Positions 22,328 to 56,203 of a stretch of DNA of 64,000 nt are shown one piece after another; position 1 is the first letter of the stretch, and each line of letters opens with the position of its first letter. The position numbers and the translations under genes are program-made. The notes beneath the pieces are model-generated. The model did no database searches. It was not told the DNA's origin and worked only from the letters and a program-made list of their open reading frames with translations. The stretch is taken from assembly GCF_022024115.1 (NCBI RefSeq), contig NZ_CP091792.1, positions 3,286,001 through 3,350,000 on the forward strand, in the 5' to 3' direction. The stretch comes from Prevotella communis. GTDB lineage: Bacteria; Bacteroidota; Bacteroidia; Bacteroidales; Bacteroidaceae.

Positions 22328-22351
22328 CACGCAAGAAACACATCTTACACT

Positions 22352-24078: not shown

Positions 24079-24097
24079 ATTTTTATATCATTTGTGG

Positions 24098-24814: not shown

Positions 24815-24852
24815 TCTATCAAATCTCAAGTCTTTTTTATACTATTTGTATG

Positions 24853-24860
24853 CAAAGGTA
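24853..24860 (-). promoter_or_regulatory. -7 box of the GT25-GT2 unit
   Basis: TACCTTTG on the minus strand, 39 bp before the ATG at 24814. No clear -33 element. Confidence 0.5.
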
Positions 24861-24904
24861 TGAAATAATTATGAATTATAACACTACGTCTGTGATTTAT
24901 TTCG

Positions 24905-24912
24905 TACCTTTG
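24905..24912 (+). promoter_or_regulatory. -7 box of the GT4 gene at 24921
   Basis: TACCTTTG, 8 bp before the first ATG and 20 bp before the alternative ATG at 24933. Divergent from the GT25 promoter. Confidence 0.55.
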
Positions 24913-24920
24913 CCGAAAAT

Positions 24921-26859: not shown

Positions 26860-27625
26860 GCTGACTGACAATCTGCTGTAACGACCCGTCCTTGACGACA
26901 ACCCGCTTATGGGCATCCAAGAGATAAAGCGACGGTAACGCTGGCAAATAAAAAACCTTCATCACATCGGGATTCAAGTTCGTATCAATATAAACGACCT
27001 TGAGTCCCGATGTTTTTTGCAACAAAGGCTCACGTTTTATCTGAGGCATTTGCTCCTGACAATGCTCACATTGAGGGTCAAAGAACACAAGGAGGACGTA
27101 TTGGCTTTGGATATCATAAAGACGCACCCTGTTACCTTCTGCATCAACAAAGGAACAGTCTGCCGACATCATTCCCGGTTGATTCAGGGATAACTGATGA
27201 ATGAGGAACTGCCGCTGAGGCGATGCAGGAAAAGCGCGTAGCAGATGGCAATACACCATGTCGTTGCGAAGCGGAGACTGTGGGTTCTCCAAATAATGAC
27301 GAGCCAACTCTTCAAAGAAGTTCAGTCTTTGTTCCGAAGATATCACACCCTCTGCAAAGATGCCCGCAGCCTTGGCACAAGTTGCAGAATCAGCATATGC
27401 CATTAGATTGGCAAAGTCAACAAAACCCTGTTCGCCAATCTGATGGTTGGTTTGCGAAGAGTTTCTAAAGTCATAGTTTTCCCAGAAATGTTCCAACGTA
27501 TAGGCTAACCGTGCTTTCTCGTCTGTCAGCGATACCGGTATCTCTGGATACGGGAATGCATTCTCCTGTGTCCATCCTTTCACAGAACAGACAAAAAACA
27601 GCAGCAATATGGTCCATCTACGCAT
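26840..27625 (-). CDS. DUF5106/thioredoxin-like exported protein
   Basis: A 261-residue protein from the ATG at 27625, with a signal peptide (MRRWTILLLFFVCSVKGWTQ). A DUF5106-like helical region (about 25-140) is followed by a TlpA/thioredoxin-like domain (about 150-261) with the CxxC motif in FFDPQCEHCQ (EHCQ context), the strand LKVVYIDTNLN, and the cis-Pro equivalent in YLPALPSLYLLD. It likely acts as a periplasmic disulfide reductase or oxidase. The start is coupled to the preceding giant gene by a TGATG overlap, making it the last gene of the 33-kb fimbrial run. The end overlaps the convergent flavodoxin gene by 20 bp. Confidence 0.82.
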   Translation of the reverse strand: MRRWTILLLFFVCSVKGWTQENAFPYPEIPVSLTDEKARLAYTLEHFWENYDFRNSSQTNHQIGEQGFVDFANLMAYADSATCAKAAGIFAEGVISSEQRLNFFEELARHYLENPQSPLRNDMVYCHLLRAFPASPQRQFLIHQLSLNQPGMMSADCSFVDAEGNRVRLYDIQSQYVLLVFFDPQCEHCQEQMPQIKREPLLQKTSGLKVVYIDTNLNPDVMKVFYLPALPSLYLLDAHKRVVVKDGSLQQIVSQLNVLLP

Positions 27626-33600: not shown

Positions 33601-34650
33601 TGGTCCAGTATAGACAGTTGAAGATGATGTGGCGTGGGTACCATCTGTTGTATAATGAATCGTAGCACCTTCAGTAGTGCAAGTGATGGTAACATAACCA
33701 CCACTAACAGAAATAGAAGGTCTTTCGCAGTTGGGCAGGTTGTATGTAGTAGCAACCGTAGGGTAATAATCACTTTCCACCTTGGCAATCGCCTTAATGA
33801 CTGTCATGCTCTCCGTCTGGTTGACATTAACGGAAGTAGTACCAGTACCTGCATAAGATTCTGTGGTTGGCGTGCTGCCATCAGTAGTATAATATATGGT
33901 AGCGCCAGTCGCTGCCGCAATGGTTATTGTGCCATCAAAATTATTGGTAATGGTAGGAGGGTCGATTGATACTGCAGATTCAAGGTAAAACTTGCCACTT
34001 CCTGAACTTTCAGAATTACCAGCTGTCCATAGACCAATGATACCACCAGTCAAAATCGCCTGGGTTTTATCAGCATCCGTTCCTGCAAGGGACTGTTGGT
34101 TTCCTTTGTTAATATTTAGATATTTTCTTGGCTTATTACTATCGGGGTCGATATTATTGTCCGAAGCATATTTAGAAATGATTTCATAAGAAGATGTATT
34201 GTCGTAGTAGTTAATATAAAACAATGCGTAATCATTATTAGAAGGTGATTCTTCAAGATGAAAACGTACACGCCCCATGTTCGTTAAAAAGCCAGCATTG
34301 TAAGTTAGATATTTCCCATCAATAGCATGCTTGATATAATAGCAATCTAAACTAGGGTGCTTCTCAATAACCCACAGAGCTTTCCTTTCATTATACCCTA
34401 CAGTACTTCGGCAATTGTAGGTAGTAAGGAAAGGCATGCCATTATCTACGTTAGTATAGTATGGGGATGTAGATTGATAATAATAATATCCTTCCGTGGG
34501 ACATAGATAGAAGTTATTGGTAGTACTTTCGGTACTATGAGTTACAGTACCGATATAATACACTCCCGAATAGTCAGTTTGTCCCCACACATTACCGCTT
34601 CCTAATGTGAGCATCAGGAGCATGGATATAGTGAGCCGTAATCTCGTCAT
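27625..34650 (-). CDS. Giant YGGG-repeat surface protein without T9SS signal
   Basis: From ATG 34650 the protein is 2,341 residues with a typical signal peptide (MTRLRLTISMLLMLTLG...VWGQ). The frame is open back to an ATG at 34896, but the extra 82 residues come from 11- and 22-bp repeats. Visible modules are: a ricin-like region (about 25-210), two chitobiase-C-like repeats with IYYTTDGSTPT and IHYTTDGTHAT (about 230-350), GLUG-like NVGGIAGE and CGGIVGYN (about 445-520), an unassigned region (about 550-1100), then about 20 or more [VI][YF]GGG units to the end (NVYGGGAYGSVG, TVFGGGEAGTVKG, SIYGGGYGSTAV). The last residues are repeat sequence, with no sorting domain. I infer a large beta-helical adhesin partner of the 4,027-aa protein. 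Function unknown. Confidence 0.72.
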   Translation of the reverse strand: MTRLRLTISMLLMLTLGSGNVWGQTDYSGVYYIGTVTHSTESTTNNFYLCPTEGYYYYQSTSPYYTNVDNGMPFLTTYNCRSTVGYNERKALWVIEKHPSLDCYYIKHAIDGKYLTYNAGFLTNMGRVRFHLEESPSNNDYALFYINYYDNTSSYEIISKYASDNNIDPDSNKPRKYLNINKGNQQSLAGTDADKTQAILTGGIIGLWTAGNSESSGSGKFYLESAVSIDPPTITNNFDGTITIAAATGATIYYTTDGSTPTTESYAGTGTTSVNVNQTESMTVIKAIAKVESDYYPTVATTYNLPNCERPSISVSGGYVTITCTTEGATIHYTTDGTHATSSSTVYTGPFAKGSANEIRAIATKVGYVNSNETALLPPTEVSFSSEITDMNGNYSLASDFSSDVSIGTSENPFSGTIDGNYITFSLSQAFIDVADGAIIKNIIISSANISGSGNAGAIVNTAKGSTRIYNCGVLDGSISGDDNVGGIAGELQGLSRVINCYNYANIESGNNCGGIVGYNRVASTSSNLQTMVMNCMFYGNITGGNAAPIYGGEIIHNKYSNANNTGLNNYCYFLYDEEKVPYVKEIANDKYHGALGAEERYLNRFEFFRMTLNSTRDMAAFYVTGDATQKDEMAKWVLDKSIAPYPILKTQGKYPSVVNPDAAHATAQTDRNKGGLLGTLSVTISGVGGGAQFTAPSGASLTTDNLTLNITDKDYDNFNYNYKKVQLPYYNEVGKGNYTDGRVVTGWKITSITGGTPGSFTTDTYDYPSFNYVDRKCTNKDLYGTGGSNRVFAQGAYWEVPDGVESITIEPYWAKAVYLSDANYDVTYNGTSKYGVTVGGSCPSTYNGQQVYNSVSSAMTALGSNASHSVYDYAVVLVGNYHQYSNDALVKDNKPVTFMSADLDGDDEPDNTLFYYHNQRKRVSPIRFDFLNIPGVGMVKRTYDATMDPEPGIFKPRGWFEITNTVFIRFGQFEYAGGNNGDTKDNMAPLILQGGIYEQFVSCTRANAQNTNYLLIGSNAWFKNFANGCHTAQANTTPKVPINVAGGDYTNFYLTGIYQPNTNENVENAECYIDGGRFTEVAGAGMQQIKGDVTWLINAADITSFFGGGINATKPITGSISTTISNSNVDEFYGGPKFGDMYEEKTVTTNATDCHFGKFFGAGYGGTAFNRVGCEDDSKTDNSRGWDSWVTKYYKRAYDEGNGGISTNYDYEFILHSDGNQTVARFFVNYASLSLASTRNVTNTLSGCTIGTFYGGGSLGAVNGDVNSTLTNCTVTGSAFGAGFSASVPTVEVWNTGAFLTPKPTYNRTANVFNNANVKTPKDNDQFDVYTWSNTYGTNADPFTDEDGKHYIHTDVSLEGLGSVTGKATLTINGTTTVGKSVYGGGEESGVAGDTEVNVTSGTIGSQGQGGVEYGNVYGGGKGKVGDKVAGYVKGNTTVNISQASADKPTTIYHNVYGGGAYGSVGDFTYDGTTGMPTACAENTGSCTVNIQSGTFGWDGKENGMVFGSSRGDVATPEGDPAVDPNDRMAWVYSTHVTIGDAGAATSPTIKGSVYGSGENGHTFQNTIVDINKGIIGITDTGTDGGAAYAYRGNVYGGGCGTDKYDSDGDDIKDAYNPLAGIVKGTTTVNITGGHVVHNVYGAGAMGSVGGGADAASGKTTINISGGRIGYDGDGNGHIFGAARGEYGVSTAASGLANVRETSVNINYTTTPAADNADKNVQLIAGTVFGGGEAGTVKGSVAVNMTGGLILKDVYGGGALADTQTDNWDATANENAGGWADAEKKSALHTTTVRLTGGRIGEDVFGGGLGEAGKPAYVWGDVLIDLNGTTSSGDTGSPIDADAKGCVVGQVFGCNNINGTPKGTVTVHVYATQSPDKDNISTKPAKGTETFDVEAVYGGGSLAAYEPEGGKNTNKSTKVIIDGCGLTSIRQVYGGGNAASTPATNVEVNGTYEILELFGGGNGLDNLPDGRPNPGANVGYKNYTIYEKDGEDKWIAKDDPAYDTKEERTAEASAIVYGTGQASVNVFGGTIHRVFGGSNTKGNVRKSAVTLLDENSGCDFCVDEAYGGGKSAPMDAEAKLLMACIPGLKAAYGGARAADIQGDVVLNITNGTFDRIFGGNNESGTIRGSIVVNIEETGCRPLIIGELYGGGNLAGYSKYGYKKVDDVWLPREAKDGQEPGTVLAADPQVNVRSFTSIGSIYGGGYGETAVMVGNPHVNINVTEGKYAANGYEGTEKTIDGHQVIIPPHVQGKIGAIQNVYGGGYGAKVDGDTYVNIGTQVGESIVFNTPFTKTVNNIEVITTSEDRTHEVKGVDIRGSIYGGGYGSTAVVTGNTNVQIGK

Positions 34651-34696
34651 GAGTGAGCCGTAATCTCGCCATGAGTGAGTAGTAATCTCGTGACCG
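34631..34696. repeat. Three tandem 22-bp repeats at a giant-gene start
   Basis: Units at 34631-34652, 34653-34674 and 34675-34696 share gtgagccgtaatctcg. The ATG favoured for the 2,341-aa protein lies on the minus strand in the first unit; the second unit carries another ATG in a different frame. Confidence 0.75.
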
Positions 34697-34761
34697 ACGA
34701 GCCGTCGCTCGAGCTCTGCTCGCTTGCTACTGAAAGGACGCAAGAACCTCGTTGTAGGCGA

Positions 34762-34851
34762 GGCATACTTTAGCCATACTCTAGCCATACTCCAGCCATA
34801 CTCTAGCCATACTCTAAGCATACTCATGAGTATGGCTATAGTATGGCTATA
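34762..34851. repeat. 11-bp tandem repeats with internal palindrome
   Basis: At least five tandem units of about GCCATACTCTA (34762-34816), a degenerate sixth (34817-34827) and two inverted copies GTATGGCTATA (34830-34840, 34841-34851). A 16-bp perfect palindrome CATACTCATGAGTATG (34819-34834) sits where orientation flips. The period is not a multiple of three, so copy-number change would shift the frame of the longer N-terminal reading of the giant gene. Confidence 0.8.
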
Positions 34852-34927
34852 GGCTTGCTGATTCCTTGTTACTCCCTTCTCATATATTTTGTTCATATCA
34901 GATGTATTTTTATTTCAGCGGGTGTTG

Positions 34928-37900
34928 TTATTTTACTGCCAGCTTCTTTTTATGGCGTCCGTCAGCACTCTGAACGAGATAGACGCCACGATTGGTCATT
35001 CTGGTCTCGACAGTCTGACCCGGTTCTACCGTGACGGTATTCAGCGTGACACCCGCAGGTGTGATGATATTAACGTCAACAGTCTGCTTCAGCGTTGACT
35101 CTACCACAATCTTGTGCTTCTTGGTGAAGATATTCAGCGTACCGCTGTATTCATCATCCCTCGGGTCTCGATCATCAACACCAAACTTGCTGTTGGTCTG
35201 ACTGAACACTATCTGCTGAACCCTCTTTGCACGAGAACCGGCTGTGGCTGGTTTCGTGAAGTATGGACGGAAAGCAGCGATAGTCACCTCGCCGGGAGCG
35301 GTCTTGTTGAAACTGCTACCATCAGCATCCATCAGGAACACATCCCTACCCTCTGCTATCTCTGGATTATTCAGATAGGTTGACTTGAAGGTAAAGCCAT
35401 CTTCTGTCACACCAGTCTCGTCGCCGCTCAGAGTCTTTACCGTCTCCTCGTCGCTGACATGTATCTCCGCACCAGTAGCAGAAGCGAATGTGATGACCTG
35501 TTTACGCAGTTCCTTAGAACCACCGGGAGCAGTGTTTGCAGGAACAAAAGCGCCACTGAGGTCAAACTCATAGTAGGTAGCGCCCGGGAATCCGATGATA
35601 TATGGTTTACCCGATGTCAGACGCGCATATTTCTCATACTCACGCGTATTGCTATAGTAGGTCTGATAGAGATCACTATTGGCATCCTGGCGGTCATAGT
35701 CGGCCTTATAGTAGAAATCCCAAAGGAACGTGTTTGTCACCTCCTTGTCAGGATCGGTGCTGACAGAAGTAGGATAGGCAAAGTTGGCTGTATAGACCTT
35801 CTGGTCATCAGACAGTGTACCGCCATCCTTGAGTTCGCGCAACCAGTATTCATGTCCCACCTTGGTCTTTGTGGTCTCGTCCTCGGAGTTGCTTCCACTA
35901 TAGAAGTGTGTTATCTCACCCTTCGTATTAGTAGTAACGATGTCTGCAGTGAACGGCAGACTGACGCCCTCCCATCCCTTGGTTCGGTCAACATATCTGT
36001 CCGGCTTACGCTGATACCACATACGGTGGCTGTCGTCAAACTGATAGGCGATAGGTGCATTGAAGTCATGCTTATCCAACAGGAAATGGTCGAGTGAGGC
36101 GATATAATCCGTGCCCGACTTATATACCCAGTGACCGTGCATACCCTCATAGTTTGAGGTATAGTCCCATTCTGCCACAGTCTTATAATCGGCATCAGTC
36201 TCTATATAATCATAGTCATGCAACTTAGCGCTGATGACATTGGCCGTCTTCTGAGCCGGCATGAGTTGTGCGGCATCACTCTCTGCTTCCGTATATACCA
36301 GCAGGTTCTTCGTCAGGTTCACATTCTGGAATGCCGTCAGACCACCATCATCGAGCAATGGCGGATAGAACACGCCACCTTCGACATGGTTGTAAGGAGC
36401 AGCTGTTGTCCATTCTATCTGATAGCCATTAGATACGTCACCATAGCCAGTGAAGTCGATAGCTGTCATATCCTTATAGGCCACCTTGGCGGCATCGCCA
36501 TTCATGGTCTCTGCAAAGACGGCATTAGGATTGAAGTGGGCCATACGCATCTTACTGCTACGGAAGTAGGCTGGTGCACGATAGACACGGTTATTGTCAT
36601 CGGTGGTGAGCAGACGTTCATCAGACTTATTGATAACCGAAGGCAAATGCTGATGAGAGCGTCCGTCAACATAGCCATAACTCAGCGTCTGTCCAAAGAA
36701 CAGATAGTCGTCGGGCCATATAGGAGCCCACGCAACAATCGGGTTACCATACTCGTCGATGTCTTCACTCTCCCTTCTTCGTACGTTGTAGCCCTCAGGA
36801 ATCTGACCGGCGGCATAACGGAAGTCACCATCATAGAACCGTTGTTCCACATAGCCCATCTTTGGTGCCTGCGTAACCCCCTGTTTCAATGGTACGCCCT
36901 GCGGCGTGTAGTAAGCATACGAACTTGGATAGTAAGCCGTACTCGTCACATTTTTCGTGCCTTCCGTATTGGTAGGCAGCGTACCATCAACATGAGCGGG
37001 GAAGTATTCATACGCCTGTCCGGTGCCGAGGTGGATGCCATCGTAATAGCGTTTACACAAGTAGAAGCCATTCAGGTTGTAAGCCACTTCACCGTCATAG
37101 AAAGCCTTATCCGCCATCTTGCGGGCCTGACCGCCGGCATAGAGAGCCGCATTACTCTCCGGATAGTAGCAGTTCACCACCTGAACACAGTTAGGATTCG
37201 TCGGATCACTCGGATTGCCGAATACTGCATTCACCTTCTCCGCATTAGCAGGGAGGGATGTCGCAGACGTCTTTACCCAACAGTTCTCTACGAAGCCATC
37301 GCCCTCGTCAGCCACACCGGCAGAAGTAAATGAACCCGTCACCCCGAGGTTATACACATTACCGCAGAGTTTTCCGAAGAGAGAATTCGTCAGTCCTGTT
37401 ATCTGATGTCCGTCACCATGCATATTACCACCGAAACAGGTCTCGCCTGTGACAGGAGCTATGGCTTGACGGGCAGGAGAACCATCAGGCACAGAACCAT
37501 CAATATCTGTACGCAGGATGAACTCCAGATTCTGAGCACCACGGATATGACTACCCAGAGGAGCATGCCCCTGGAAGGTGCCCGTCTTGATGAGTCCATC
37601 CTCATCCAGCTCATCTTCAGATGGTGTGAGCAGACTCAAGTCGAAGAGGTTCTTCAGTTCGTCCAGGCCATTCTTATCCTTTCGCGGGTCATCATCACTT
37701 ACTGATGCATAGTTGTTAATATAAACCTTAGCCGGACGATCCACATCGGCACGATCAATATAAAGGTGGTTGTCCTTATAGCGTTCCATCACCTCACCCA
37801 AATCGTGATAGTTGGCCACCTTCACTGGCACACTATTAGAATAGGTCTTACCCAGATAAGTCTTCGAATAGAAGGCGATATAGTGATCGTTGTTCTGATA

Positions 37901-40900
37901 CCAGTAAACCGGCGTTTTGTTATTAGTGAAAGGTACTCCGTTACGATGATGGTCGGCATCATTCTTGTCGGCATAGAGTTCCCAACCATTGATAAGCACC
38001 TCATAGATACCGGCTCTTACCTCAGGTCTGTCCAGACCAACGGCACTACCCGGCAATACAATTGGCGGTTCGTTCAGCGTGCCGATAGAAGGTGCTCCAC
38101 TCTCCAACTGCAGGTGGATATTCACCACATGGAGTTCGTTGGTCATCTTGATATCACCATTATCACCATTCTCGTAGTAGGTGTATTGATATACCACCGT
38201 GACAATCTTTTCCTTGGTCAGATCGCGGATGTCACTCTCACGGTTCACAAAGAGCGTTGTGGTCTCAGTAGGCTCCTGTCCTTGGATGGTAAAGAACTTC
38301 TGATGGTCTATCAAATCGTTCTTATAGCGACTCTCATCAATTCTATCACCGACATTTATCATACTGCCTCCCTCCTGATGTGCTTCAAAACAGTAGTAGG
38401 TCGTTGAGTTTGGTGTCAGTCCCGTGACTTTATTTACCTTTCCGGCATGTGCGCTATAGACATCTGCATCTACCACCTGTCCCTTACCATACGGTGTTCC
38501 CTGAGCATCAGTAAAGTTGTCGATAGCCACATAGGCATCGGTATCTGTTGTTCCGGTCTCTATACGAGTATAATAACGTTTGTCGTTACGTATTCTCTCA
38601 AATTCGCCACTTGTAAGTACTGCTCCAGGTGTATTAGACGTGAACGTGCGTGTTGTTCCATCTGTAAACATCAACGTCTGTGTGTTATCTGAATTGTACA
38701 CTGCATTATATTCCACAGGCACCTGGTTACTATATGGCGCCCAGTAGGCCTGCTCCGTGGTCTTTTTCTCAGACGGGTTATAGAAGCCCAGATAGTTAGG
38801 ATCGGCGAAGAGGTCTAAGGCATCGTGGTTGAAGTCGAAGTGTTTACGGTCGTCTTCAGATAATGAGCACCACGAGTCCTTCGCACTATAGTTCATATTA
38901 GCCTCATAGGTCAGTCCGCCGTATTTTCCTGTCAGCGTACAGATATAAGCCTCCGTCATGATAGCATCTATCTCTTCTTCGTCTATCACATGATGGTACT
39001 TAGTCTTCAGTGCTGCTATCTGCGATGCAGTGAGCAGGTCGCCATTCAACAGATAGTCTTCTTCAGCCAGTTTCAAAGAACCGATACAAACCCAGGCCTT
39101 TCCGAAGCACTTCTTCTGTTCTGTGGTCAGTTCTCCATACTCCTTGGCAGGAATAGCGGTACCCGAATTAGCCGTCTTGTTCTGACCATGATAGGTATAG
39201 CTTACAGTCTCAAGAGCCACATAAGCTTCCTCCATATGCTCCTTACCATCGTCTGTATGATCATAGACCGCCTTTGTGATGATATCGCCCTCGGAATAGT
39301 CACGACGACCATAGACAGCCGTTGTCTGAGGACTGAAGGTAGGACCTTCCACCCAGTCTGACTTACTTTCTGGCGAGAGGGCGTCATACTCTTCCTTCGT
39401 CTTTCTAGTGGTGCTGACGGTATTACCATTGACGGTATAGGTGCTATTACCAGTAACAGGGCTATACCAGTCGCTCCAGATCTTTGGTGTGTCCATATCG
39501 AAGGTCAGCACATAACCAGTATCATGTCCGATATTATTTGATGTGCGGAACACATCGTCCACCACATCCGAATTACTCATAGGATGTCCATGGACATCAA
39601 CGAAAGGATGACCCTCAATGTCGGTGATTGTATGATTATCCGCTTTGAAGGTGCTCACATCCGTGGGCAACATCACATACTCTCCAATCTTATATTCCTG
39701 TCCGTCAATCTTGCACGACCTGCTGTTGACAACAGTCTCGGTAACAAAGAGTTTTTTATCAGACACACTCAGGTGATTCCAGTCCCACCAAGTGATAACG
39801 TCATTCAAGTGATACCTGTCGGCATTGTTATTGACCCATGCACTGCCATCATTTCCCTCTGTACCAATCTTCTTGCCTTCCTCAAAGTAGTAGGCATAGA
39901 GATTTGGTTTGACATCAAGTAACTTCAGGCGTCCGTTAGAAGCCGCCGTAATAGTAAGTGGCAGACGCACATCCTTGGAGTAGGCATTGGCACTACCAGT
40001 ATAGGCCGATACCACCTGTTTATAGACATATACCGAACCCTTTACATACCAGTAATGAGCCTTAGAGTAAGGATCAACACCGATGATGTAGGCATTATTC
40101 GTGGGATAACAGTCGTCGATAATACGCTTGTCGCTGGGATGAATGAAGTTACCAGATGTCTCAATAAGCTGTGGCTTATAAGCATTCTCCTCCACATCAC
40201 CACTAATGATATAACTGCCCGTACTGCTCCAGTCACCTTCCTGGTCTTCAGAATAGCGATACTGCTTATAGGTACGTGCATCGTCGCGTACTTCCTCGCC
40301 ATTGACTATTCTGGGCTTATTATATTCTGAGAGAACTACATTCTTCTTGTTGGGATAGAATCTTGGCACACGGTGTTCGTTCTTTGCATAGACGAAGCCA
40401 CCACCCTCTGTAGAACGTTTCACATTGATTAGGTCAAGTTCCACCACTCCGGTTATCAGACCATAGTCTTTCTCCTTATTTGGATTCTGTTCCGTCAGTT
40501 CAGTGGTCAGCTCCAGGAACACACCCGAGGCCAGTGCCACCTGGTTAGGACTCATGCCATAGTTTCTGTCATTACCCGTTGGGCGTGACTTCTTAAAACT
40601 GTAATAAGTATATGGCTTATTGGTTGTGAGGTCTGTTACCGGATTACCATTACTATCCACATAGTCATCACCAAATGCCACATCACTGGTCAGGTTACCC
40701 AGATAATTCACAATACTATAGATACCAAAGTAGTTGCCATGCAAAGCCTCACTACCGGTATCAGGATTACTGCCAGTATAACCAGCCGCATCGGTACGTA
40801 CCGAACGCTGTTTGTTCAATGACAACTCGCCGACACGGTTAATGGTATAATCGATATCCTCGCCTACCTCTGCCACACGGTCCTTAGCGCCCTGAAGCAC

Positions 40901-43900
40901 CATACGACTACCGAAGACAGCACAGAAGTCTGCTCTCTGGATGGTGTTCAGCAAGCGTCCGGCATAGATAGAACAGAATCCGAACTGTTCCCAGTTAGCG
41001 GCATTAAAACCAGATGATTTCTTCAGTTTTTCAAAGTCTTCCTCCTTGACACGCTGTCCATTCTCGTAGAAATCCCCATCTATATTGACACCATACTTAG
41101 TAACGCCATCCACCTCATGGGTCTCCGTACCATCCTTACAAACATATTCCAGTTGGAAGTAAGCATGCTCACGGTTCGACAAGTTACGGTATTCTTCCAA
41201 GGTGATACGACTAGACAGACCATAGTAGTCGGTACCATAGTTCGTGATATTCAACTCACGATAGCCATCACTTTTGGAAAGGTTTCCACCACCATAGAGG
41301 CCACCGGTATGTTCCGTACCAACGGTGATAAAGTCACGATGATAACAGTCATAGAGCGTGGCTGTGGTATTACCAAAGACTGTCGTAGCATTGGCATAAT
41401 GCGTATCACTGTTTGACGACACGTTGCCACCGCCAAACACAGCATTATGAATAAGCACGCCACGCTCCTCGGTATCACCTGGAACAGGATTGCCATTGGC
41501 ATCCTTATCGCCTGTAAACAAGCCAGCCCATGCCGATTTATCTTTCGGAAGTGTGTTCAGGTCGTTGGTCTCGAAATACTCATACTTGTTTTTTGTCTTT
41601 CCGTTGATTGTAGCCTGATCAGCCTTTACCTGCAGGTATGGTTCAACCACCACCTTACAGTCTTCTATCAGTTTATCCTCACCATTCTCCCTGTAATAAT
41701 AGTAGTAGTGCTGAGGAGAACCCGTAGTAATACCGGCCTGTTTGTCAGCCTTTGTCTTGGGATTATCGAAGCCTTTACTATAGACATAGCCCAGGTCTCC
41801 ACCGCCAAACACATTACCATAGTTCTTGCCTTCCTTTACAGCTTCTGCAGTACCAATCTCACCACCATGAATATAGACTTCCGTCTGACCGAATACATAA
41901 CCATCAGTATAGAGATCATTGGAGCCACCAAATCCTAAGACGTTATAGCCCTTACCTCCTCCAAACACATTACGCTTCACATGTCCATTATACATGGTCA
42001 CATGAGTCTTACCAGGCTTCGTAATCTTGCCGAACGTACGGATATGGTTCACCTCACCACTCTCAGTCGTCTCACCACGTCCGATAGCGGCAATCTCAGC
42101 ACCTCCGTGTACACTACCACGAACGATACCACCCCACATCACGACATTGGTCTCGTCTACATTACTCTTATCACTATAGCCGCCACCGAAGATGTTTCCA
42201 TAGTCCTTCAGGCGACCGATACTGTCGCTCACCGTCCAGGTCTCATCATTCAGTTTCTCAATGAAATCACCATTGATATAGTCATAACCGATATAGCCAT
42301 TGTTGAGAGTCACATTGGCCGTTCCATAGATAGCACCGCCACGGCCTCCCTTCTCAGTCTCACCCTCACCGCCGCCATAAACGTTACGCTGGATGGCAGG
42401 TACGCCATTAAAATAACCATACTGATAGTCATTCTCCGTATCGGTATCATAGCCATTAGTTGCAGCCTCATCCTTCAGGTATTTCATAGCCTTCTTCAGA
42501 CTTTCGGTTACCTGGTCCTTACGAATACCGATGATGATATTTGCCTGAGCAGGGATATCACCCTCGGTAGAGGCATTCAGATTAGCATCCACCTCTACCA
42601 TCAAGGGATTTCCCTGCTTGTCATTTATAGGATTACCTTCGTTATCCAACAAAGGTTCCGTAGTTTTGTGCTTACCCACGCTACCTTTGTATCCGCCACC
42701 AAACACATTACGGACAACACCTGCAGCGATATAGGCCGTAGTAGAAGCCTCGAAGGGATTATCGTACTCATCCGTCAGATTACCGTAACGGTCAAACACA
42801 GAACCGACAGAACCTGCAGCAACAACATCCTTCTCAACCAGTCCACCAAGCAGAGCGATATAGGTAGTGCCATTGACATCACCACTTCTGTTCTTACCAA
42901 CGGTACCCATGCCACCACCATAGGCATAGCCACCGCCAACCTGATAGCCACCCAAGTAAGAACCGACGACAGAGCCCTTGTTGATTATGACATTGGTATT
43001 ATATTTCCTGCCATCGTGACGTGGCTTTGCCAAAGGATTCTTCAAACCGTCTTCTTCGTAGTCTTTGCCAATAGCCAGTCCTTTATAGGTAGGATCATTA
43101 AATTCCTCCACCGACATCCTGCGGGCTGTAGCCACATTACAAACACGACCATTCTGACCACCACCGTAGATAATATAAGCCTGTGCCCCTTTATTGAAGT
43201 TCACCTCCGTATATTGTGACCACGTATCCTCACCACAGCCAGCACCAAAGACAGAAGCCATATACCCGGATGTCTTATTAGTCCAAACTGGTGCATTGAT
43301 ATTCACACGTCCATAGAGCGTTCGGCGTGCATTGTTGTTGCCACCAAAGATATATCCCACAAGAGCATCAGAACTATTCCAGTTCACATTCGTCTCATAG
43401 GCATCACAGATAGTGTCATTGCTCAAACCATAGGCACCACCGAAAAGTTTATTCAGACTGATGGTAGATTTCTCAGGCACATTCACTTCCGTACGACGGG
43501 TGAAGCCTTCCTGATAGCTGGCGCCATAGACAGCATTAATCTGACCACGAGGCAGGTCGATAATAGCCGACACCTTATCCAGGGCAGCTTTCTCCGTAGC
43601 ATTAGGTGTCGCTATAGGAGCTACGTATTCTCTCATGCCCAGTCCGCTCCATGCACCGGCACCAAAGACCTCCATCTGTTTGTAGTTCTCCATATCCTGC
43701 GGAATATCAATCAGGATATAACTACGGTCCTGCATGATATCACGGTCAGCATCACCTGGACTACCCTGTCCGGCACCATAGACCTTTGTCACAGTGTTAT
43801 TGGCATTATTCTTCAGGAGGGCTGTCGCTGTTGGCCGGAAATTCACGAAGGCATTATCCATTCGTGGTTTGGTATAGATAGCATCAGCAGTCACTTTTGC

Positions 43901-46900
43901 GATGCCATGTTCATCGAAGAATTTCCTGAACTGCAATTCCGTATAGTCATATGTACCGTAGCAACCAGCATAGATTCCCACCAGATGTCCCTGCGTATAC
44001 TCTGTATAAGCCGACACCTCCTTGGCTGCATTTATGCCTGGAAGCGTCAGGCCACTTACCCCCTGACGTATTCTGCTGGTGAAATCGGCCTTATTAAGAA
44101 TACGACCACCCAGGTCATTACCACCATATATATAGTCACGAACATAAGGGAATCCCTCTGTGAAAGAGCCGTCTGCATTCACTTGCCTACCCACGTAGGT
44201 CTCAGTATGACCAAGGATATCAGCATTACAAGAACCACCAAAGGTCTGGTAGACACGTCCCTTACCAAGGTTAATCACTGTGTTACCACAGATAGGACCT
44301 AAGAAGCCACCACCGTAGATATACTCACAATCGGCCATCTCATCGCTACTTGTGGCACTCTTTGGAACACCTTCCTTAGCACCTTTCAAGTTGACATAAC
44401 AACTGTAGTTCGGATGATATTGATAGCTCTTGCCATTGAAGGAATAAACACCATTGGCATAAGTACCATCAGGCTCTGTTGAGGTGCCAGTAGCTTCACC
44501 GATGATGCCTTCCTCACTACCACCGAAGATCTGGAACACATACGATTTCTCATTCAGGTTAATGGTGGTACTACCCCATATCTCGGTATCTCGTCCCTTA
44601 CCGCCGCCAAATACGTTGAGGCCCTTACCCAGCACGTCAATACCCTGCTGACCACGGATGACACCCGTGCGGCGTTCCTCAATAAAATACTTGTCGTTAC
44701 CAGGATGCAGCTCATCACTTGCAAAGAGTTTCTCTTCACCATTTGCATCCAAGGTCACCTTGTCGAAGAGAACGTTCGTATCTACCAGACTGGCATTGAT
44801 ATTGATAATCACATTACCATTCACATGACCACTATTATAGCAGCCGCCATAGATATTTCCACCAACAAGACGTCGGTTCAAGTCATCCGTAGTCGTATTA
44901 CCACCGCTTGTATCCGTCGCGCCTATCGTCGTCGGTGTTCCTGATTTCACACCCAGATTCGTATAGACATTCCATTCCAGCTGTGGCTTGCCATTATTAT
45001 CCAATATCAAGTTTCCATATGAGTCAGTCTTCCATCGCATAGGTCTGATTTCCAAACCGGAAAGGTTCAGCGTCAGCTTGTTTCCGATCTTTCCCTCCGG
45101 TGCACTGTCGGCATTGCCTATAAGTCCACCATTGTAAGCCGCATTATACTGCGTAGGTTTGATATAAGCGTTATTGCTGCCGCCCACCAGCTTGTCATAG
45201 ATAATCACACCATAGTTAAAGTCAATAGTGTTCATACCCTCAGTATTCACACTACCTCTGTTGCCGCCGCAGAAGAACGAGCCGAAATAGGTCTTTTTGT
45301 TCACATAATCAGGATCGAACACCACACGTGGTTTGATGCCCATCTCGCAGCCTTTCATATAGGTAGCAAACTGAGTGGCATCAAGAAGATTCATCTGACT
45401 GAAGTCGGCATCAGACGTGTTGTCAGTGGTGTTTCCATTCTCATCCACATACTTAGCCAAGCGCGCCAGCACACTCTCTGTCAGCATATTCTCACCATTA
45501 CTGCCCATGAACACCTGGTGAGCATAGACATTGGCACCAATTTTCAATTCAGCTCTTGCCGTACTACTCGTAGAACGTAGTGTTGCGCTATTGCCTCCAC
45601 AGTACACAGAACCGCCGATATAGGTTGGCTTTGCCTCCGTACCTATCAGACGTACAGTCACAGCCTCCGTATTTGGTCGGAACTGATAAAGTGCCTCAGC
45701 ACTCTCCTGTCCGGTAAAGACAGTATTACTATTATGCCCTAGGATATCATTGACATCGTAGAAATAATCACCATAGAGGTCGGATGTCTTCAGCTGTTTA
45801 TTATCTGTATATGGGTAAGAACCGTTACCGCCTCCGAACACATGTCCATTGACCGTGCTGTGGATACCCACTGCCGAACCGCCATAGACCATGCCCGAGA
45901 TATCATTACCGCCATAGACATTATAGATATTACCACCACCAATATGCACACGGGCTGCATAACCAGCCGGACAGAGCACACCTTCGATGGTTTCTTCATC
46001 GATAGCCTTTCCTGGATTCACGTCTGCCATACGACAGCCACCATAGACATTATTGATTTCCAAAGCGTCAGAGTTCACCGGCAGGAAGATACCTTTCTCG
46101 TATGTCATCGCACCACGGTTACCACCTGAATACAGGTTACGTATCTTACCACTGTTCAGGTGCCACTTAGGACGAATATCCATCGGTGCCTTATTATTTC
46201 CGCCAAACACACGAGAGAACTGGTAGGCATCACTCGTGGCCACATTTTCACCAGCACTGCCAAGAGCGAAAATACCCATGGCTTTCAGACGTTCGGTAGT
46301 CAGTTTACTATTACCTTTCTCATCTGTCATATCATAGGTAATTGCACTCTCATTATCAATACAAATATCTGTTGCCTCAGTCACTGTGGCATTGTTGCCA
46401 CCGCCATAGAGGATAACAATAGAACCGCCACGGATTTCCAGATACGCCTTTCTCAGTTCCGGCTTCACCATACCATAGAACTCACTCGTCTGCGAAGTAT
46501 AGTCATAGTCGCCATTACCACCGCCAAAGACCTGTCCAATATAAATCTTGTATGGCTGGGTTGAACCTACCATCTTCTCTTTTGTGGTGAGAACCAAGGA
46601 ATTATAAGAATTGTCAATACCATTTTCTTCTGCCTTTTTCAGCAGCGGCACCTCTTCATAGGTAATCTCATTGGTAGCCTGATTGATTTTCTGAACCGTT
46701 TTCGTTGGCAAGACCGATGTTCCAATCGTTCCTGCGATATCGTTACCACCATATACATAATTGATAAGGATATCGCCACTCATATTCTCGCCATCGATAT
46801 TGACGAAGGTATGACCGCCCACATTAGCCTGACGAGCACCACCATAGACCGAGCCATTGATATCGCCGGCACGCACGGTAACACTCGTCTTGCCGTTCAT

Positions 46901-47011
46901 ATCACCGGCATTACCACCGCCATAGACGTTACCACCAATGGTAATCTGTGCCTGAGCCGTCACGGCGCCCAGGAACATCATGAAGCCTATTATCGTATCT
47001 TTGATTCTCAA
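34928..47011 (-). CDS. Giant 4,027-aa YGGG-repeat protein with T9SS C-terminal domain
   Basis: Largest gene in the window. The best start is a TTG at 47011: an in-frame TAG lies just upstream, and only this start gives a full signal peptide (MRIKDTIIGFMMFLGAVTAQAQ). Residues about 23-1910 contain nearly 40 glycine-turn units, [VI][YF]GG[GN] followed by a short strand (NVYGGGNAGD, QVFGGGNGDYD, NVFGGGKGYN), suggesting a beta-solenoid. Residues about 1910-3190 are unassigned. A GLUG-like segment (GDGHQITGLTNSLFGKL) lies near 3190-3225. The last ~75 residues (VDVNIITPAGVTLNTVTV, GVYLVQSADGRHKKKLAVK) match a type A T9SS sorting domain, so it should be exported and attached at the cell surface. By analogy with Mfa5 it may be an accessory or tip adhesin of the pilus encoded upstream. 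Confidence 0.8.
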   Translation of the reverse strand: MRIKDTIIGFMMFLGAVTAQAQITIGGNVYGGGNAGDMNGKTSVTVRAGDINGSVYGGARQANVGGHTFVNIDGENMSGDILINYVYGGNDIAGTIGTSVLPTKTVQKINQATNEITYEEVPLLKKAEENGIDNSYNSLVLTTKEKMVGSTQPYKIYIGQVFGGGNGDYDYTSQTSEFYGMVKPELRKAYLEIRGGSIVILYGGGNNATVTEATDICIDNESAITYDMTDEKGNSKLTTERLKAMGIFALGSAGENVATSDAYQFSRVFGGNNKAPMDIRPKWHLNSGKIRNLYSGGNRGAMTYEKGIFLPVNSDALEINNVYGGCRMADVNPGKAIDEETIEGVLCPAGYAARVHIGGGNIYNVYGGNDISGMVYGGSAVGIHSTVNGHVFGGGNGSYPYTDNKQLKTSDLYGDYFYDVNDILGHNSNTVFTGQESAEALYQFRPNTEAVTVRLIGTEAKPTYIGGSVYCGGNSATLRSTSSTARAELKIGANVYAHQVFMGSNGENMLTESVLARLAKYVDENGNTTDNTSDADFSQMNLLDATQFATYMKGCEMGIKPRVVFDPDYVNKKTYFGSFFCGGNRGSVNTEGMNTIDFNYGVIIYDKLVGGSNNAYIKPTQYNAAYNGGLIGNADSAPEGKIGNKLTLNLSGLEIRPMRWKTDSYGNLILDNNGKPQLEWNVYTNLGVKSGTPTTIGATDTSGGNTTTDDLNRRLVGGNIYGGCYNSGHVNGNVIININASLVDTNVLFDKVTLDANGEEKLFASDELHPGNDKYFIEERRTGVIRGQQGIDVLGKGLNVFGGGKGRDTEIWGSTTINLNEKSYVFQIFGGSEEGIIGEATGTSTEPDGTYANGVYSFNGKSYQYHPNYSCYVNLKGAKEGVPKSATSSDEMADCEYIYGGGFLGPICGNTVINLGKGRVYQTFGGSCNADILGHTETYVGRQVNADGSFTEGFPYVRDYIYGGNDLGGRILNKADFTSRIRQGVSGLTLPGINAAKEVSAYTEYTQGHLVGIYAGCYGTYDYTELQFRKFFDEHGIAKVTADAIYTKPRMDNAFVNFRPTATALLKNNANNTVTKVYGAGQGSPGDADRDIMQDRSYILIDIPQDMENYKQMEVFGAGAWSGLGMREYVAPIATPNATEKAALDKVSAIIDLPRGQINAVYGASYQEGFTRRTEVNVPEKSTISLNKLFGGAYGLSNDTICDAYETNVNWNSSDALVGYIFGGNNNARRTLYGRVNINAPVWTNKTSGYMASVFGAGCGEDTWSQYTEVNFNKGAQAYIIYGGGQNGRVCNVATARRMSVEEFNDPTYKGLAIGKDYEEDGLKNPLAKPRHDGRKYNTNVIINKGSVVGSYLGGYQVGGGYAYGGGMGTVGKNRSGDVNGTTYIALLGGLVEKDVVAAGSVGSVFDRYGNLTDEYDNPFEASTTAYIAAGVVRNVFGGGYKGSVGKHKTTEPLLDNEGNPINDKQGNPLMVEVDANLNASTEGDIPAQANIIIGIRKDQVTESLKKAMKYLKDEAATNGYDTDTENDYQYGYFNGVPAIQRNVYGGGEGETEKGGRGGAIYGTANVTLNNGYIGYDYINGDFIEKLNDETWTVSDSIGRLKDYGNIFGGGYSDKSNVDETNVVMWGGIVRGSVHGGAEIAAIGRGETTESGEVNHIRTFGKITKPGKTHVTMYNGHVKRNVFGGGKGYNVLGFGGSNDLYTDGYVFGQTEVYIHGGEIGTAEAVKEGKNYGNVFGGGDLGYVYSKGFDNPKTKADKQAGITTGSPQHYYYYYRENGEDKLIEDCKVVVEPYLQVKADQATINGKTKNKYEYFETNDLNTLPKDKSAWAGLFTGDKDANGNPVPGDTEERGVLIHNAVFGGGNVSSNSDTHYANATTVFGNTTATLYDCYHRDFITVGTEHTGGLYGGGNLSKSDGYRELNITNYGTDYYGLSSRITLEEYRNLSNREHAYFQLEYVCKDGTETHEVDGVTKYGVNIDGDFYENGQRVKEEDFEKLKKSSGFNAANWEQFGFCSIYAGRLLNTIQRADFCAVFGSRMVLQGAKDRVAEVGEDIDYTINRVGELSLNKQRSVRTDAAGYTGSNPDTGSEALHGNYFGIYSIVNYLGNLTSDVAFGDDYVDSNGNPVTDLTTNKPYTYYSFKKSRPTGNDRNYGMSPNQVALASGVFLELTTELTEQNPNKEKDYGLITGVVELDLINVKRSTEGGGFVYAKNEHRVPRFYPNKKNVVLSEYNKPRIVNGEEVRDDARTYKQYRYSEDQEGDWSSTGSYIISGDVEENAYKPQLIETSGNFIHPSDKRIIDDCYPTNNAYIIGVDPYSKAHYWYVKGSVYVYKQVVSAYTGSANAYSKDVRLPLTITAASNGRLKLLDVKPNLYAYYFEEGKKIGTEGNDGSAWVNNNADRYHLNDVITWWDWNHLSVSDKKLFVTETVVNSRSCKIDGQEYKIGEYVMLPTDVSTFKADNHTITDIEGHPFVDVHGHPMSNSDVVDDVFRTSNNIGHDTGYVLTFDMDTPKIWSDWYSPVTGNSTYTVNGNTVSTTRKTKEEYDALSPESKSDWVEGPTFSPQTTAVYGRRDYSEGDIITKAVYDHTDDGKEHMEEAYVALETVSYTYHGQNKTANSGTAIPAKEYGELTTEQKKCFGKAWVCIGSLKLAEEDYLLNGDLLTASQIAALKTKYHHVIDEEEIDAIMTEAYICTLTGKYGGLTYEANMNYSAKDSWCSLSEDDRKHFDFNHDALDLFADPNYLGFYNPSEKKTTEQAYWAPYSNQVPVEYNAVYNSDNTQTLMFTDGTTRTFTSNTPGAVLTSGEFERIRNDKRYYTRIETGTTDTDAYVAIDNFTDAQGTPYGKGQVVDADVYSAHAGKVNKVTGLTPNSTTYYCFEAHQEGGSMINVGDRIDESRYKNDLIDHQKFFTIQGQEPTETTTLFVNRESDIRDLTKEKIVTVVYQYTYYENGDNGDIKMTNELHVVNIHLQLESGAPSIGTLNEPPIVLPGSAVGLDRPEVRAGIYEVLINGWELYADKNDADHHRNGVPFTNNKTPVYWYQNNDHYIAFYSKTYLGKTYSNSVPVKVANYHDLGEVMERYKDNHLYIDRADVDRPAKVYINNYASVSDDDPRKDKNGLDELKNLFDLSLLTPSEDELDEDGLIKTGTFQGHAPLGSHIRGAQNLEFILRTDIDGSVPDGSPARQAIAPVTGETCFGGNMHGDGHQITGLTNSLFGKLCGNVYNLGVTGSFTSAGVADEGDGFVENCWVKTSATSLPANAEKVNAVFGNPSDPTNPNCVQVVNCYYPESNAALYAGGQARKMADKAFYDGEVAYNLNGFYLCKRYYDGIHLGTGQAYEYFPAHVDGTLPTNTEGTKNVTSTAYYPSSYAYYTPQGVPLKQGVTQAPKMGYVEQRFYDGDFRYAAGQIPEGYNVRRRESEDIDEYGNPIVAWAPIWPDDYLFFGQTLSYGYVDGRSHQHLPSVINKSDERLLTTDDNNRVYRAPAYFRSSKMRMAHFNPNAVFAETMNGDAAKVAYKDMTAIDFTGYGDVSNGYQIEWTTAAPYNHVEGGVFYPPLLDDGGLTAFQNVNLTKNLLVYTEAESDAAQLMPAQKTANVISAKLHDYDYIETDADYKTVAEWDYTSNYEGMHGHWVYKSGTDYIASLDHFLLDKHDFNAPIAYQFDDSHRMWYQRKPDRYVDRTKGWEGVSLPFTADIVTTNTKGEITHFYSGSNSEDETTKTKVGHEYWLRELKDGGTLSDDQKVYTANFAYPTSVSTDPDKEVTNTFLWDFYYKADYDRQDANSDLYQTYYSNTREYEKYARLTSGKPYIIGFPGATYYEFDLSGAFVPANTAPGGSKELRKQVITFASATGAEIHVSDEETVKTLSGDETGVTEDGFTFKSTYLNNPEIAEGRDVFLMDADGSSFNKTAPGEVTIAAFRPYFTKPATAGSRAKRVQQIVFSQTNSKFGVDDRDPRDDEYSGTLNIFTKKHKIVVESTLKQTVDVNIITPAGVTLNTVTVEPGQTVETRMTNRGVYLVQSADGRHKKKLAVK

Positions 47012-47029: not shown

Positions 47030-48097
47030 TTATTCAGTTACCACCGTAGGACTGTCCAGATCCGGATCGGACAGGACATAAATGAAGGTTGGTTTCACTG
47101 TCAGTTTTATCGTTCTCCTCTCACCACGTTTGATAGTTTGCAGCACATCCTGCAGTTTATTCTCGCTGGTACAGTCTTTACGTACAAGGTTATTTTTCCT
47201 GTCGTACACATCATAGATACATTGCAGTTTCAGATTCACGCTGGCACCACTGGCGAAATAAGTTGGAACACCTAAGGTCTCATAGGTTGTTGTCAACTCA
47301 TGTTCGGTATCTAGCAGCATATATTCTCCCTTTGCCTCGTCTGTCGGTGTGTAAGTGATGCTGTTAATAGGTGTAGCACCCGGTTTCATCACGATATCAG
47401 CATTCACCTTTGATGTTGCACTGGATGTCAGCACGATTGACTTGATATGAATTTTCCGCATCTCCGCGTAATTCTGATCGACACGAATGCTGAATCGCAA
47501 GGCAGAATAGAGATGATCGAACAGCAGATAGACATGATTATGATTACGTCCCTTTGCCTGATAGAGGAAATTACCCGTTTTCACCTCAACATTGGCATCA
47601 ACACTCTCAGTACCCTTCACCCCGACTATCAGACTGATATCCTTATTCGAGAAAAAATCTATCCCCGACAAATGAAGCGTAGCACCCAGACTATAGTCGT
47701 CCTGGAAAGGAGATATCCCTACATCCTCTACCGCATTCATCGGCAGATAGCCATAGATATAATAGTCCACTCCGTCCTTCACGATGGCGTTGGAATGCCA
47801 GCGGTCTGTCTCATAGACAAAGCGTCGAAGACTTGCTTCTTGAGGCGCGACAGTCAGATACGTGCAGATAGCGTGTCCCTCTTCTGCCACCTCTGGATGC
47901 TGCACAGAATAAAGTTGATAGCCTGCAGGCACAGTAGCGCTGCGCGTTACGTCTTCAAACTCACGACTGTAGGAAAGCAGTTGCAACGTATCCCCGTCCA
48001 TAGGTTCATTATCATCAGAACATGACGACACACACCATATCATGAGCAGTAAGACTGTCCATAACAGATTATCATATATCGTCATTCTACGTTTCAT
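47030..48097 (-). CDS. Fimbrillin-like lipoprotein (Mfa_like_1 type)
   Basis: Start at ATG 48097, 11 bp after the previous stop; the longer frame begins at a TTG inside the gap. The 355-residue protein has a signal ending in a lipobox (CVSSC, Cys26) and a VTRSAT motif at Arg52. The body resembles the two-domain Bacteroidetes fimbrillin-like family, with YYIYGYLP, YLLFDHLYSALRFSI and IKSIVLTSSAT. It would be an outer-membrane lipoprotein or pilus subunit. It ends 18 bp before the 4,027-aa gene, making it the pilus-type gene closest to the giant adhesin. Its exact position in the fibre is unknown. Confidence 0.75.
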   Translation of the reverse strand: MKRRMTIYDNLLWTVLLLMIWCVSSCSDDNEPMDGDTLQLLSYSREFEDVTRSATVPAGYQLYSVQHPEVAEEGHAICTYLTVAPQEASLRRFVYETDRWHSNAIVKDGVDYYIYGYLPMNAVEDVGISPFQDDYSLGATLHLSGIDFFSNKDISLIVGVKGTESVDANVEVKTGNFLYQAKGRNHNHVYLLFDHLYSALRFSIRVDQNYAEMRKIHIKSIVLTSSATSKVNADIVMKPGATPINSITYTPTDEAKGEYMLLDTEHELTTTYETLGVPTYFASGASVNLKLQCIYDVYDRKNNLVRKDCTSENKLQDVLQTIKRGERRTIKLTVKPTFIYVLSDPDLDSPTVVTE

Positions 48098-48108
48098 CAC
48101 CACACTCC

Positions 48109-49245
48109 TTACCAATTATATAAATCACGTTCTCTCTCGGCCTCTTCCCATGAGCGGATATATACCTGAAGCATACGCAGTTCCTCACCTCCGAGATAAT
48201 ATACATAGACTATCCAGGAATGGTTTCTGCTGAAGTTATAGTTGCCAGGAACCTCGTTCATCTGGAAGTTCACCGTTTTGTTATACACCTGATTATTCTC
48301 CTCAATACGATAACCAATCGTACCCGACAGGCGTATGTCACTCTCACGGAAATAATATGGTCCTAATTGCGAGACCTCACCATCCGCTACAAACTTATCG
48401 AGGATATCCTCGTAGTCTTGTATCTGTTGCGACTTATACACAAGATCAAAAATACGCTCCGTCTTTGCCACGACAGCAGGAGGTGTGATGGATACAGGGT
48501 CTGTCACATATCCGTCGCTGATATAGTAGGGGTTGGCAGTCGTATTAAACACATGCTCCGTCTCAGGGAACTGGTTGCCATGCAACTGGATACTGGTGAT
48601 AGAGAACTGCGCATCCACATCTTTGTTCTGAGCCATCACGAAACGAATCTTTGATACGCAACGTGTCAGCTTCACCACGGGCAGGCTCAGAACAGGATAG
48701 GAGCCCTGAACAGAGATATTCTCCGCACAGCCCGCCATCGGCAGTCCGGCTGCAGAGATGTCCGTTGTCAGACTGGTTGTTCCGAAATAGCCGGACGCAA
48801 TCACCGCATCGCGTACCTCACTACGCTTGGAACTGCCATTCAAGGTGCCCAAGCCGATACTCTCTGCATTTGTCAGCACATAGACATCCACCTGATTGCC
48901 ATCACCTGTTATCGCTTTTACCTGCTCCTCCGTCAAAGCTATCTGAAACAGTTTTGCACGACTGCCCTGCAACTCTGGTTCTGCCGGCGCCAGATAGTGA
49001 AGCGGCAAGTCCGTGGCAGCACTTCCTGCATGCTTGAATATCCATATCTTCAGAGATTTCACCGCATTCTCCAAAACCTTTGCACTAATCAGTCCCTCGT
49101 CACCACGAGTCACCATCGGGTCGTCTGCCGGATAGACATAGATATTCAGCACGCCAGCATCTTTCAGAGAAGACGTAGTCTCTGAGTCATGCCCGCAAGA
49201 TGCAGCAAGCACTAAGGTCAGTATCAGTACTAAATATCTCATCAT
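48109..49245 (-). CDS. FimA-like fimbrial subunit lipoprotein
   Basis: A 378-residue protein from ATG 49245 (or 49242), one base after the previous stop. The signal MMRYLVLILTLVLAASC places the lipid on Cys17. The mature N-terminus (VLNIYVYPADDPMVTRGDEGL) has the FimA-type strand with an Arg at 47, followed by VKSLKIWIFKHAG and VDVYVLTNAES as in FimA-family N-terminal domains. The C-terminal part has SWIVYVYYLGGEE. It may polymerise or act as a minor subunit. It differs clearly from the four Mfa1-like paralogues upstream and resembles major-subunit type fimbrillins more. Confidence 0.78.
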   Translation of the reverse strand: MMRYLVLILTLVLAASCGHDSETTSSLKDAGVLNIYVYPADDPMVTRGDEGLISAKVLENAVKSLKIWIFKHAGSAATDLPLHYLAPAEPELQGSRAKLFQIALTEEQVKAITGDGNQVDVYVLTNAESIGLGTLNGSSKRSEVRDAVIASGYFGTTSLTTDISAAGLPMAGCAENISVQGSYPVLSLPVVKLTRCVSKIRFVMAQNKDVDAQFSITSIQLHGNQFPETEHVFNTTANPYYISDGYVTDPVSITPPAVVAKTERIFDLVYKSQQIQDYEDILDKFVADGEVSQLGPYYFRESDIRLSGTIGYRIEENNQVYNKTVNFQMNEVPGNYNFSRNHSWIVYVYYLGGEELRMLQVYIRSWEEAERERDLYNW

Positions 49246-49246
49246 A

Positions 49247-51142: not shown

Positions 51143-51163
51143 TCTCTGCCAGATTTAAATAAA

Positions 51164-53227: not shown

Positions 53228-53262
53228 ATCGTTATCATTTTGGTTATTTCATTATCATAGTT

Positions 53263-56171: not shown

Positions 56172-56203
56172 ATTATTCGTCACGCATGTACGCGTACACT
56201 ATA

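Follow-up and report, generated by a model that had tools for sequence, protein, structure and literature searches.

A candidate giant-adhesin module with YGGG repeats on a type V-like pilus operon of Prevotella communis

We analyzed a stretch of 64,000 nucleotides from Prevotella communis (assembly GCF_022024115.1, contig NZ_CP091792.1), hereafter called the window, in which a pilus-type gene set ends in two genes for giant proteins, G1 and G2, both carrying arrays of repeats with a YGGG motif. On the evidence of sequences and structure models, we regard this as a probable new module of giant adhesins within a type V-like pilus operon. In our reading, to which we give a probability of about 0.62, a type V-like Bacteroidales pilus set and two giant secreted beta-solenoids act as a long surface adhesin. 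The gene set is conserved in Prevotella-related bacteria, many of them from rumens, and may build a very long adhesive fiber. All its genes lie on the minus strand, to which the window coordinates of its features refer, in the order DUF3575/OmpA barrel, seven lipoproteins (F1 to F7), G1, G2, and a DUF5106-thioredoxin protein. The successive intergenic gaps are 141, 20, -4, 35, 21, -17, -7, 18, 31, and -4 bp.

The giant proteins G1 and G2

G1 is encoded by one uninterrupted open reading frame (ORF) of 4,027 amino acids (aa) at 34928-47011, with a TTG start and a predicted mature mass of about 440 kDa. A preliminary description of this DNA had noted a 4,027-residue protein with a signal peptide and a C-terminal domain resembling those of type IX secretion system (T9SS) substrates, and our data agree on all three points. 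The N terminus (46949-47011) is a hydrophobic Sec signal, read by eye, that ends in AQA and is followed by the mature glutamine. This glutamine was homologous in 70/70 aligned relatives, which were those within the length range (3/73 were left out). A glutamine at position +1 after a Sec signal is the rule for T9SS substrates according to PMC5837995. At the other end, residues encoded by 34931-35113 matched the sorting domain TIGR04183 (Por_Secre_tail, T9SS type A-like) up to the end of the model (E 3.9e-4, 20.3 bits), and the same domain was recovered in 57 of 71 G1 C termini at E<=0.01, the best at 1e-8. The genome also encodes the T9SS component SprA (TIGR04189, 2,626 bits). Relatives mostly carry G1 as one ORF, of 3,384 to 4,388 aa in 28 genes. 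As read by the ORF finder, the start codons of 73 named relatives were ATG in 40, TTG in 28, and GTG in 5.

The YGGG array of G1 (40892-46948) begins at the first mature residue. The preliminary description had counted nearly 40 units of the form [VI][YF]GG[GN], a number that proved too high: we found 17 exact motifs, and 32 when a loose form, [VIL][YF][GA][GA], was scored. The repeats are nevertheless far above chance, since 500 shuffles of the protein gave a mean of 0.14 exact motifs (maximum 2) and of 2.5 loose ones. The commonest internal spacings between motifs are 25 to 28 and 31 to 34 residues. Structure prediction of a block of the array, which had been proposed as a check, gave a beta-solenoid: the AlphaFold model of aa 22 to 420 has a predicted local distance difference test (pLDDT) score of 93.9 and a predicted template modeling (pTM) score of 0.93. 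Between the array and the sorting domain lies a conserved part lacking YGGG motifs (approximate limits 35132-40891; mean column identity of 45% in a 13-sequence alignment), which matched nothing in Pfam besides the sorting tail, in one member. Pfam gave no match in G1, and none to a C-terminal translocator barrel; the protein ends in the T9SS-type tail.

That description had also presented G1 as a single giant. G1 itself is borne out, but a second YGGG giant, G2, located directly downstream, had been overlooked. G2 is a 2,423-aa ORF (27625-34896) that carries a Sec signal in its sequence, and its start is probably near 34650. Its head (33910-34578) resembles ricin-type beta-trefoil lectins: PF14200 was matched by 19 of 31 aligned heads at E<=0.05 (best 7.6e-9), the alignment comprising the window head and 30 of 35 heads picked by a short pattern, although the window head did not match at E 0.05. 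When searched against the PDB, the head profile retrieved designed and natural beta-trefoils, with Mitsuba-1 on top at a whole-sequence E of 7.6e-8, although no individual stretch passed alone. A CHB_HEX_C_1/Fn3_assoc domain follows, each model matching two stretches, with the best stretch at 33538-33702 (PF13290, E 1.6e-18; PF13287, E 1.3e-14). The YGGG array of G2 (27628-30579) contains 13 exact and 20 loose motifs. It includes a C-terminal module of 425 aa (27628-28902; aa 1999 to 2423) with four invariant cysteines and a bare-coil end, for which a 13-sequence alignment gave a mean column identity of 55% and AlphaFold a fair model (pLDDT 77.1, pTM 0.79). Neither Pfam nor NCBIfam detected a T9SS sorting domain in the window G2, whose C terminus is a solenoid coil. 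We rejected the idea that G2 is a truncated gene, because its end is conserved among relatives.

In relatives, the G2 region consists of one to several ORFs. The shortest have a few hundred aa, and the longest array ORFs have 6,260, 6,267, 7,101, 7,949, and 11,862 aa. The last of these (G104, C104, 35259-70847; L087, L088, L245, L246) harbors 195 [VIL][YF]GG motifs and is uninterrupted in a contig of a draft genome. In the array of one relative, a block was seen by eye to recur about every 700 residues. In 9 of 54 loci, the pattern of a Por-type C terminus was detected in an ORF that lies downstream of G1. Just beyond G2, a gene for a protein with a DUF5106 and a thioredoxin fold (26840-27628; PF17127, E 8.6e-28; AhpC-TSA, E 3.6e-7) overlaps its stop codon by 4 bp. 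Given the four invariant cysteines of the G2 module, this protein is a possible disulfide helper.

The YGGG parts of G1 and G2 matched no family in Pfam or NCBIfam, in line with the preliminary description, which had known of none, and 54 aligned N-terminal parts of G1 likewise had no match in Pfam. Among open-license papers in PubMed Central, we found no description of this repeat family or of this operon, and the YGGG giants are apparently undescribed so far. They add a repeat family for which we found no Pfam or NCBIfam model and whose longest ORF has 11,862 aa. The family is tied to a pilus operon in numerous Prevotella-related bacteria, many of which bear ruminant labels.

Linkage to pilus-type genes

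To G1 are linked genes of the type that the preliminary description had called fimbrial. It had placed seven lipoproteins of this kind upstream of the giant, and this is supported: all seven harbor a lipobox pattern, six have a threonine-arginine (TR) pair, and orthologs match Mfa2, FimA, and Mfa_like_1. The set opens with a DUF3575 outer membrane barrel (58745-60070; PF12099, E 1.4e-43) with an OmpA-like part (E 2e-4, below the cutoff). F1 (56204-58603, 799 aa), F3 (53263-55092, 609 aa), F4 (51164-53227, 687 aa), and F5 (49247-51142, 631 aa) are fimbrillin-like lipoproteins with the TR pair at aa 64, 59, 61, and 61, respectively. None of them has a Pfam match, apart from a weak one of F4 to DUF5035 (E 0.024). 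They resemble one another (49247-58603) as lipoproteins of 600 to 800 aa with a TRM...FRG pattern. F2 (55089-56183) is an Mfa2/FimB-like anchor lipoprotein with no TR pair in its first 110 aa. F6 (48109-49263, 384 aa), of the FimA/Mfa type, and the fimbrillin-like F7 (47030-48115, 361 aa), which ends 18 bp upstream of G1, have the pair at aa 52 and 57.

Type V pilins mature at an arginine about 30 to 40 residues past the lipidated cysteine, and the anchor is exempt. The TR pairs at aa 52 to 64 of F1 and F3 to F7 presumably lie about where this maturation occurs, and F2 has none. The arginine of the TR site is invariant or nearly so among relatives. According to PMC5954841, Arg-gingipain processes pilin precursors.

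Family assignments came mostly from relatives. Mfa2 (PF08842) was matched by 8 of 16 F2 members, the window F2 matching SVA alone, below the cutoff. P_gingi_FimA was matched by 10 and Mfa2 by 3 of 14 F6 members, the window F6 matching neither. In PDB profile searches, F6 gave weak matches to Mfa3 and other fimbrial proteins (best E 0.022), and the top match of F7 was the fimbrial protein BF1861, also weak (E 0.064). BLAST had left 91 ORFs upstream of G1 unassigned, and we tested 62 of them with Pfam: 32 matched Mfa_like_1 and 8 DUF5119, and four unrelated families had one match each.

We then asked how constant the association is. Among other matching family genomes, 26 of 45 were read, which together with the window gave 28 G1 genes. 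F7 was found by BLAST upstream of 27 of these, and a G2-like ORF followed G1 in 28/28. The DUF3575 barrel gene was upstream in 19/28, within the genes examined, and the lipoproteins other than F7 vary in type and number. A larger comparison came from a scan of named genomes, which yielded 230 relatives; we retained the best 80. Of these loci, 77 have 700 bp or more of sequence preceding the G1 ORF and served as the base for counting, with a profile test of the four genes upstream of G1. At the ORF level, F7 was the best profile in 74/77, and some fimbrial profile was found in 76/77. A six-frame check of the three misses revealed F7 in two of them, L130 and L167, whose retained ORFs had been antisense, so that F7 is upstream of G1 in 76 of the 77 informative loci. 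Relatives lying consistently away from fimbrial genes, the outcome that the preliminary description had set against its own proposal, were thus not what we found. On one contig of another genome (G235; L056-L060), two lipoprotein-F7-G1-G2 sets occur in tandem, the second G2 being two ORFs.

G1 and G2 also occur together in genomes. The C-terminal half of G1 matched 46 of 301 family genomes and a profile of the G2 end likewise 46/301, with 40 genomes shared, where about 7 would be expected by chance. Six family genomes have G1 only and six have G2 only. Three of the latter were read in part, and no G1 ORF was seen. There the G2 ORF runs off the contig edge in two and starts 2.3 kb from the edge in the third, and because these ORFs lie at or near contig edges, missing assembly may be the cause. 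In the order, G1 matched 5 of 295 genomes, one being the window's own and the other four belonging to two other families. Within the window's genus, the family scan matched two genomes, both of the same species, and 20 listed congeners had no match. The closest named relative, among the best 80 of 230, is Prevotella communis E15-14 (97%). The 80 record titles name a ruminant animal or stomach in 26 cases, bear the label RUG, which we take to mean rumen genomes, in 33, and are silent in 21; these counts carry no control for the make-up of the collection.

Possible function and assembly

In the mechanism that we propose, the pilus set would consist of the DUF3575/OmpA barrel, the Mfa2-like anchor F2, and the TR-type pilins F1 and F3 to F7. 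We infer every step from export onward. Sec would export G1 and G2, and the T9SS would carry G1 to the surface, where its C terminus would hold it and its solenoid would project from the cell. The G2 head may bind glycans of feed particles, mucus, or other microbes, and G2 is perhaps docked on G1, adding binding. F7 would be the pilin that joins G1 to the pilus, a role modeled on that of Mfa3, through which Mfa4 and Mfa5 are believed to be attached to the Mfa1 fimbria in Porphyromonas gingivalis (PMC5954841). If so, the system may bear on the attachment of rumen Prevotella to feed or to one another, and it raises the question of how the T9SS exports very long solenoids.

Among the closest parallels is the Mfa1/Mfa5 system of P. 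gingivalis, a type V pilus that likewise has lipoprotein pilins and an anchor of the Mfa2 type. Its accessory protein Mfa5 bears a T9SS sorting domain at the C terminus, and by position and tail G1 could be its counterpart. According to PMC7835359, Mfa5 is the only fimbrial protein with a T9SS domain, its export needs the T9SS, and its band runs at 120 to 150 kDa, far below the approximately 440 kDa of G1. Moreover, a beta-solenoid forms the start of G1, a second giant comes after it, and the window set comprises seven lipoproteins and a barrel of the DUF3575 type. Neither G1 nor its relatives gave a sequence match to von Willebrand factor A (vWA) or immunoglobulin-like domains, the modeled fold covering aa 22 to 420 only, and the PDB profile matches of G1 include no Mfa5 chain. 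The comparison with Mfa5 made in the preliminary description therefore stands for position and the T9SS-type tail and fails for sequence: with no vWA or Mfa5 match found, G1 was rejected as a member of the Mfa5 family, and the analogy is positional only. A giant T9SS-dependent surface adhesin for comparison is SprB, of several hundred kDa (PMC10202324). G1 is likewise very large and of T9SS type; however, the sorting domain of SprB is of type B and the protein travels along the gliding machinery, as the same paper describes, whereas the G1 tail matches the type A model and G1 lies among pilus genes. The beta-helical adhesins pertactin, Ag43, TibA, FHA, and the SRRP of Limosilactobacillus reuteri had no sequence match to G1 in the PDB and exceeded an E of 0.1 in Foldseek. 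Furthermore, G1 has a T9SS-type tail instead of a translocator barrel.

Several results weigh against a pilus-linked adhesin. The window sorting domain scores below the curated cutoff of 23 bits, and 14/71 G1 C termini lack a TIGR04183 match at E<=0.01. None of the seven window lipoproteins passes a fimbrial Pfam model, and 0/36 members of the F1/F3/F4/F5 type match Pfam. One locus, L180, has no fimbrial profile upstream of G1, the sole such case among the 77. Foldseek returned nothing from the PDB at E<=0.1 for the modeled solenoid, and in structure comparison lyases and phage tailspikes score about equal to some adhesins; middling Z scores may, as the comparison tool cautions, reflect the common arrangement alone. 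G2 has no T9SS domain that would account for its route out of the cell. Finally, linkage is no proof of physical assembly.

In an alternative that we consider somewhat unlikely, the two giants would act separately as surface adhesins or form an outer coat, and the pilus genes would be adjacent through co-expression alone. According to PMC5954841, mfa5 of P. gingivalis has a transcript separate from that of mfa1-4, so genes in one cluster do not have to serve a single assembly, and the great range of G2-region ORF lengths beside the narrow one of G1 in the 28 genes is in agreement with separate roles. Against it stands the nearly constant company of F7 and G1, maintained though the other lipoproteins vary. 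That G2 is no surface protein but remains in the periplasm or assists the export of G1 appears improbable. The missing T9SS domain, the overlapping thioredoxin-fold gene, and the invariant cysteines of the C-terminal module would fit such a role, but a lectin-type head and thousands of repeat residues would be hard to account for in the periplasm. In addition, the Por-type tails downstream of G1 indicate that T9SS substrates occur at the G2 position.

The ends of the two proteins allow our pilus-linked adhesin reading to be extended. The first motif lies exactly 7 residues past the mature glutamine in 59/71 G1 proteins, including that of the window, compared with 1.7% of random array cuts. Similarly, 38 of 51 distinct G2-type 3' ends stop 20 to 27 residues past the last motif (12% for random cuts). 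Coil boundaries are thus the usual place where the G2 chain stops and the G1 chain starts. In the models, no helix precedes the first strand of G1 or follows the last strand of G2. According to PMC7034853, natural solenoids are capped or distorted at one end or at both, which keeps them from polymerizing end to end. Taken together, the sequences and models, with usually bare coils at the mature N terminus of G1 and the C terminus of G2, suggest end-to-end stacking. At an imagined G2-G1 junction, the summed spacing would be 27 to 32 residues in 15 of 17 two-ended loci, within the range of the commonest internal spacings.

We therefore considered whether the C-terminal coil of G2 docks on the N-terminal coil of G1, so that the two make an unbroken solenoid that bears the lectin-type head at its distal tip, and whether G2, which lacks a T9SS domain, leaves the cell bound to G1. 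Despite the agreement of the ends, we hold this to be unlikely. The ends are homologous across loci, so that the statistics describe conservation and not independent events, and the junction peak of 29 to 30 residues (10 of the 17 loci) falls between the two internal peaks, making the phase match approximate. In addition, 13/51 G2 ends differ: six have a short tail, and the other seven include the long ORFs of G104, G161, and G255, whose tail of about 50 to 60 residues past the last coil speaks against simple stacking there. Quite unlikely, in our estimate, is the most elaborate form, a megadalton multiprotein fiber with a T9SS-anchored G1 base, optional long middle pieces from array ORFs (11,862 aa at most), and a tip made of the lectin-headed G2 or of its part with the head, in which uncapped solenoids of different genes would be stacked and G2 would cross the outer membrane bound to G1. 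If true, stacked solenoids would be a kind of surface filament that differs from both donor-strand pili and single-chain adhesins, and the question arises whether natural solenoid ends serve as docking faces.

Tandem repeats and neighboring genes

Tandem arrays of a 22-bp and an 11-bp unit, detected by Tandem Repeats Finder (TRF), lie between G1 and the likely G2 start (34630-34825, minus strand), and the G2 ORF has a long leader across both. The 11-bp unit, GAGTATGGCTA, forms short tandem arrays in the window (34764-34825) and in ten more genomic clusters (11 in total), and no ORF of at least 70 aa crosses the unit in those ten. Since it is dispersed and not crossed by such ORFs in the ten clusters, it looks like an intergenic repeat that precedes the actual start of G2. 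For the same reason, we disfavor the idea that the two arrays, of 11 and 22 bp, cause phase variation of G2. The window's 22-bp unit was found only at this place. Many relatives have different 22-bp units near the G2 start, several of them palindromic looking by eye. Arrays are nevertheless more frequent at the annotated 5' end of G2-type ORFs: they were located there in 15/40 G2-type genes, 6/28 G1 genes, and 28/507 other genes in one set and in 22/54, 22/73, and 53/252, respectively, in a second. Elsewhere in the window, the region at 9819-26036 that adjoins the set appears by eye to encode sulfatase-type membrane enzymes, an ABC transporter, and sugar or glycosyl transferases.
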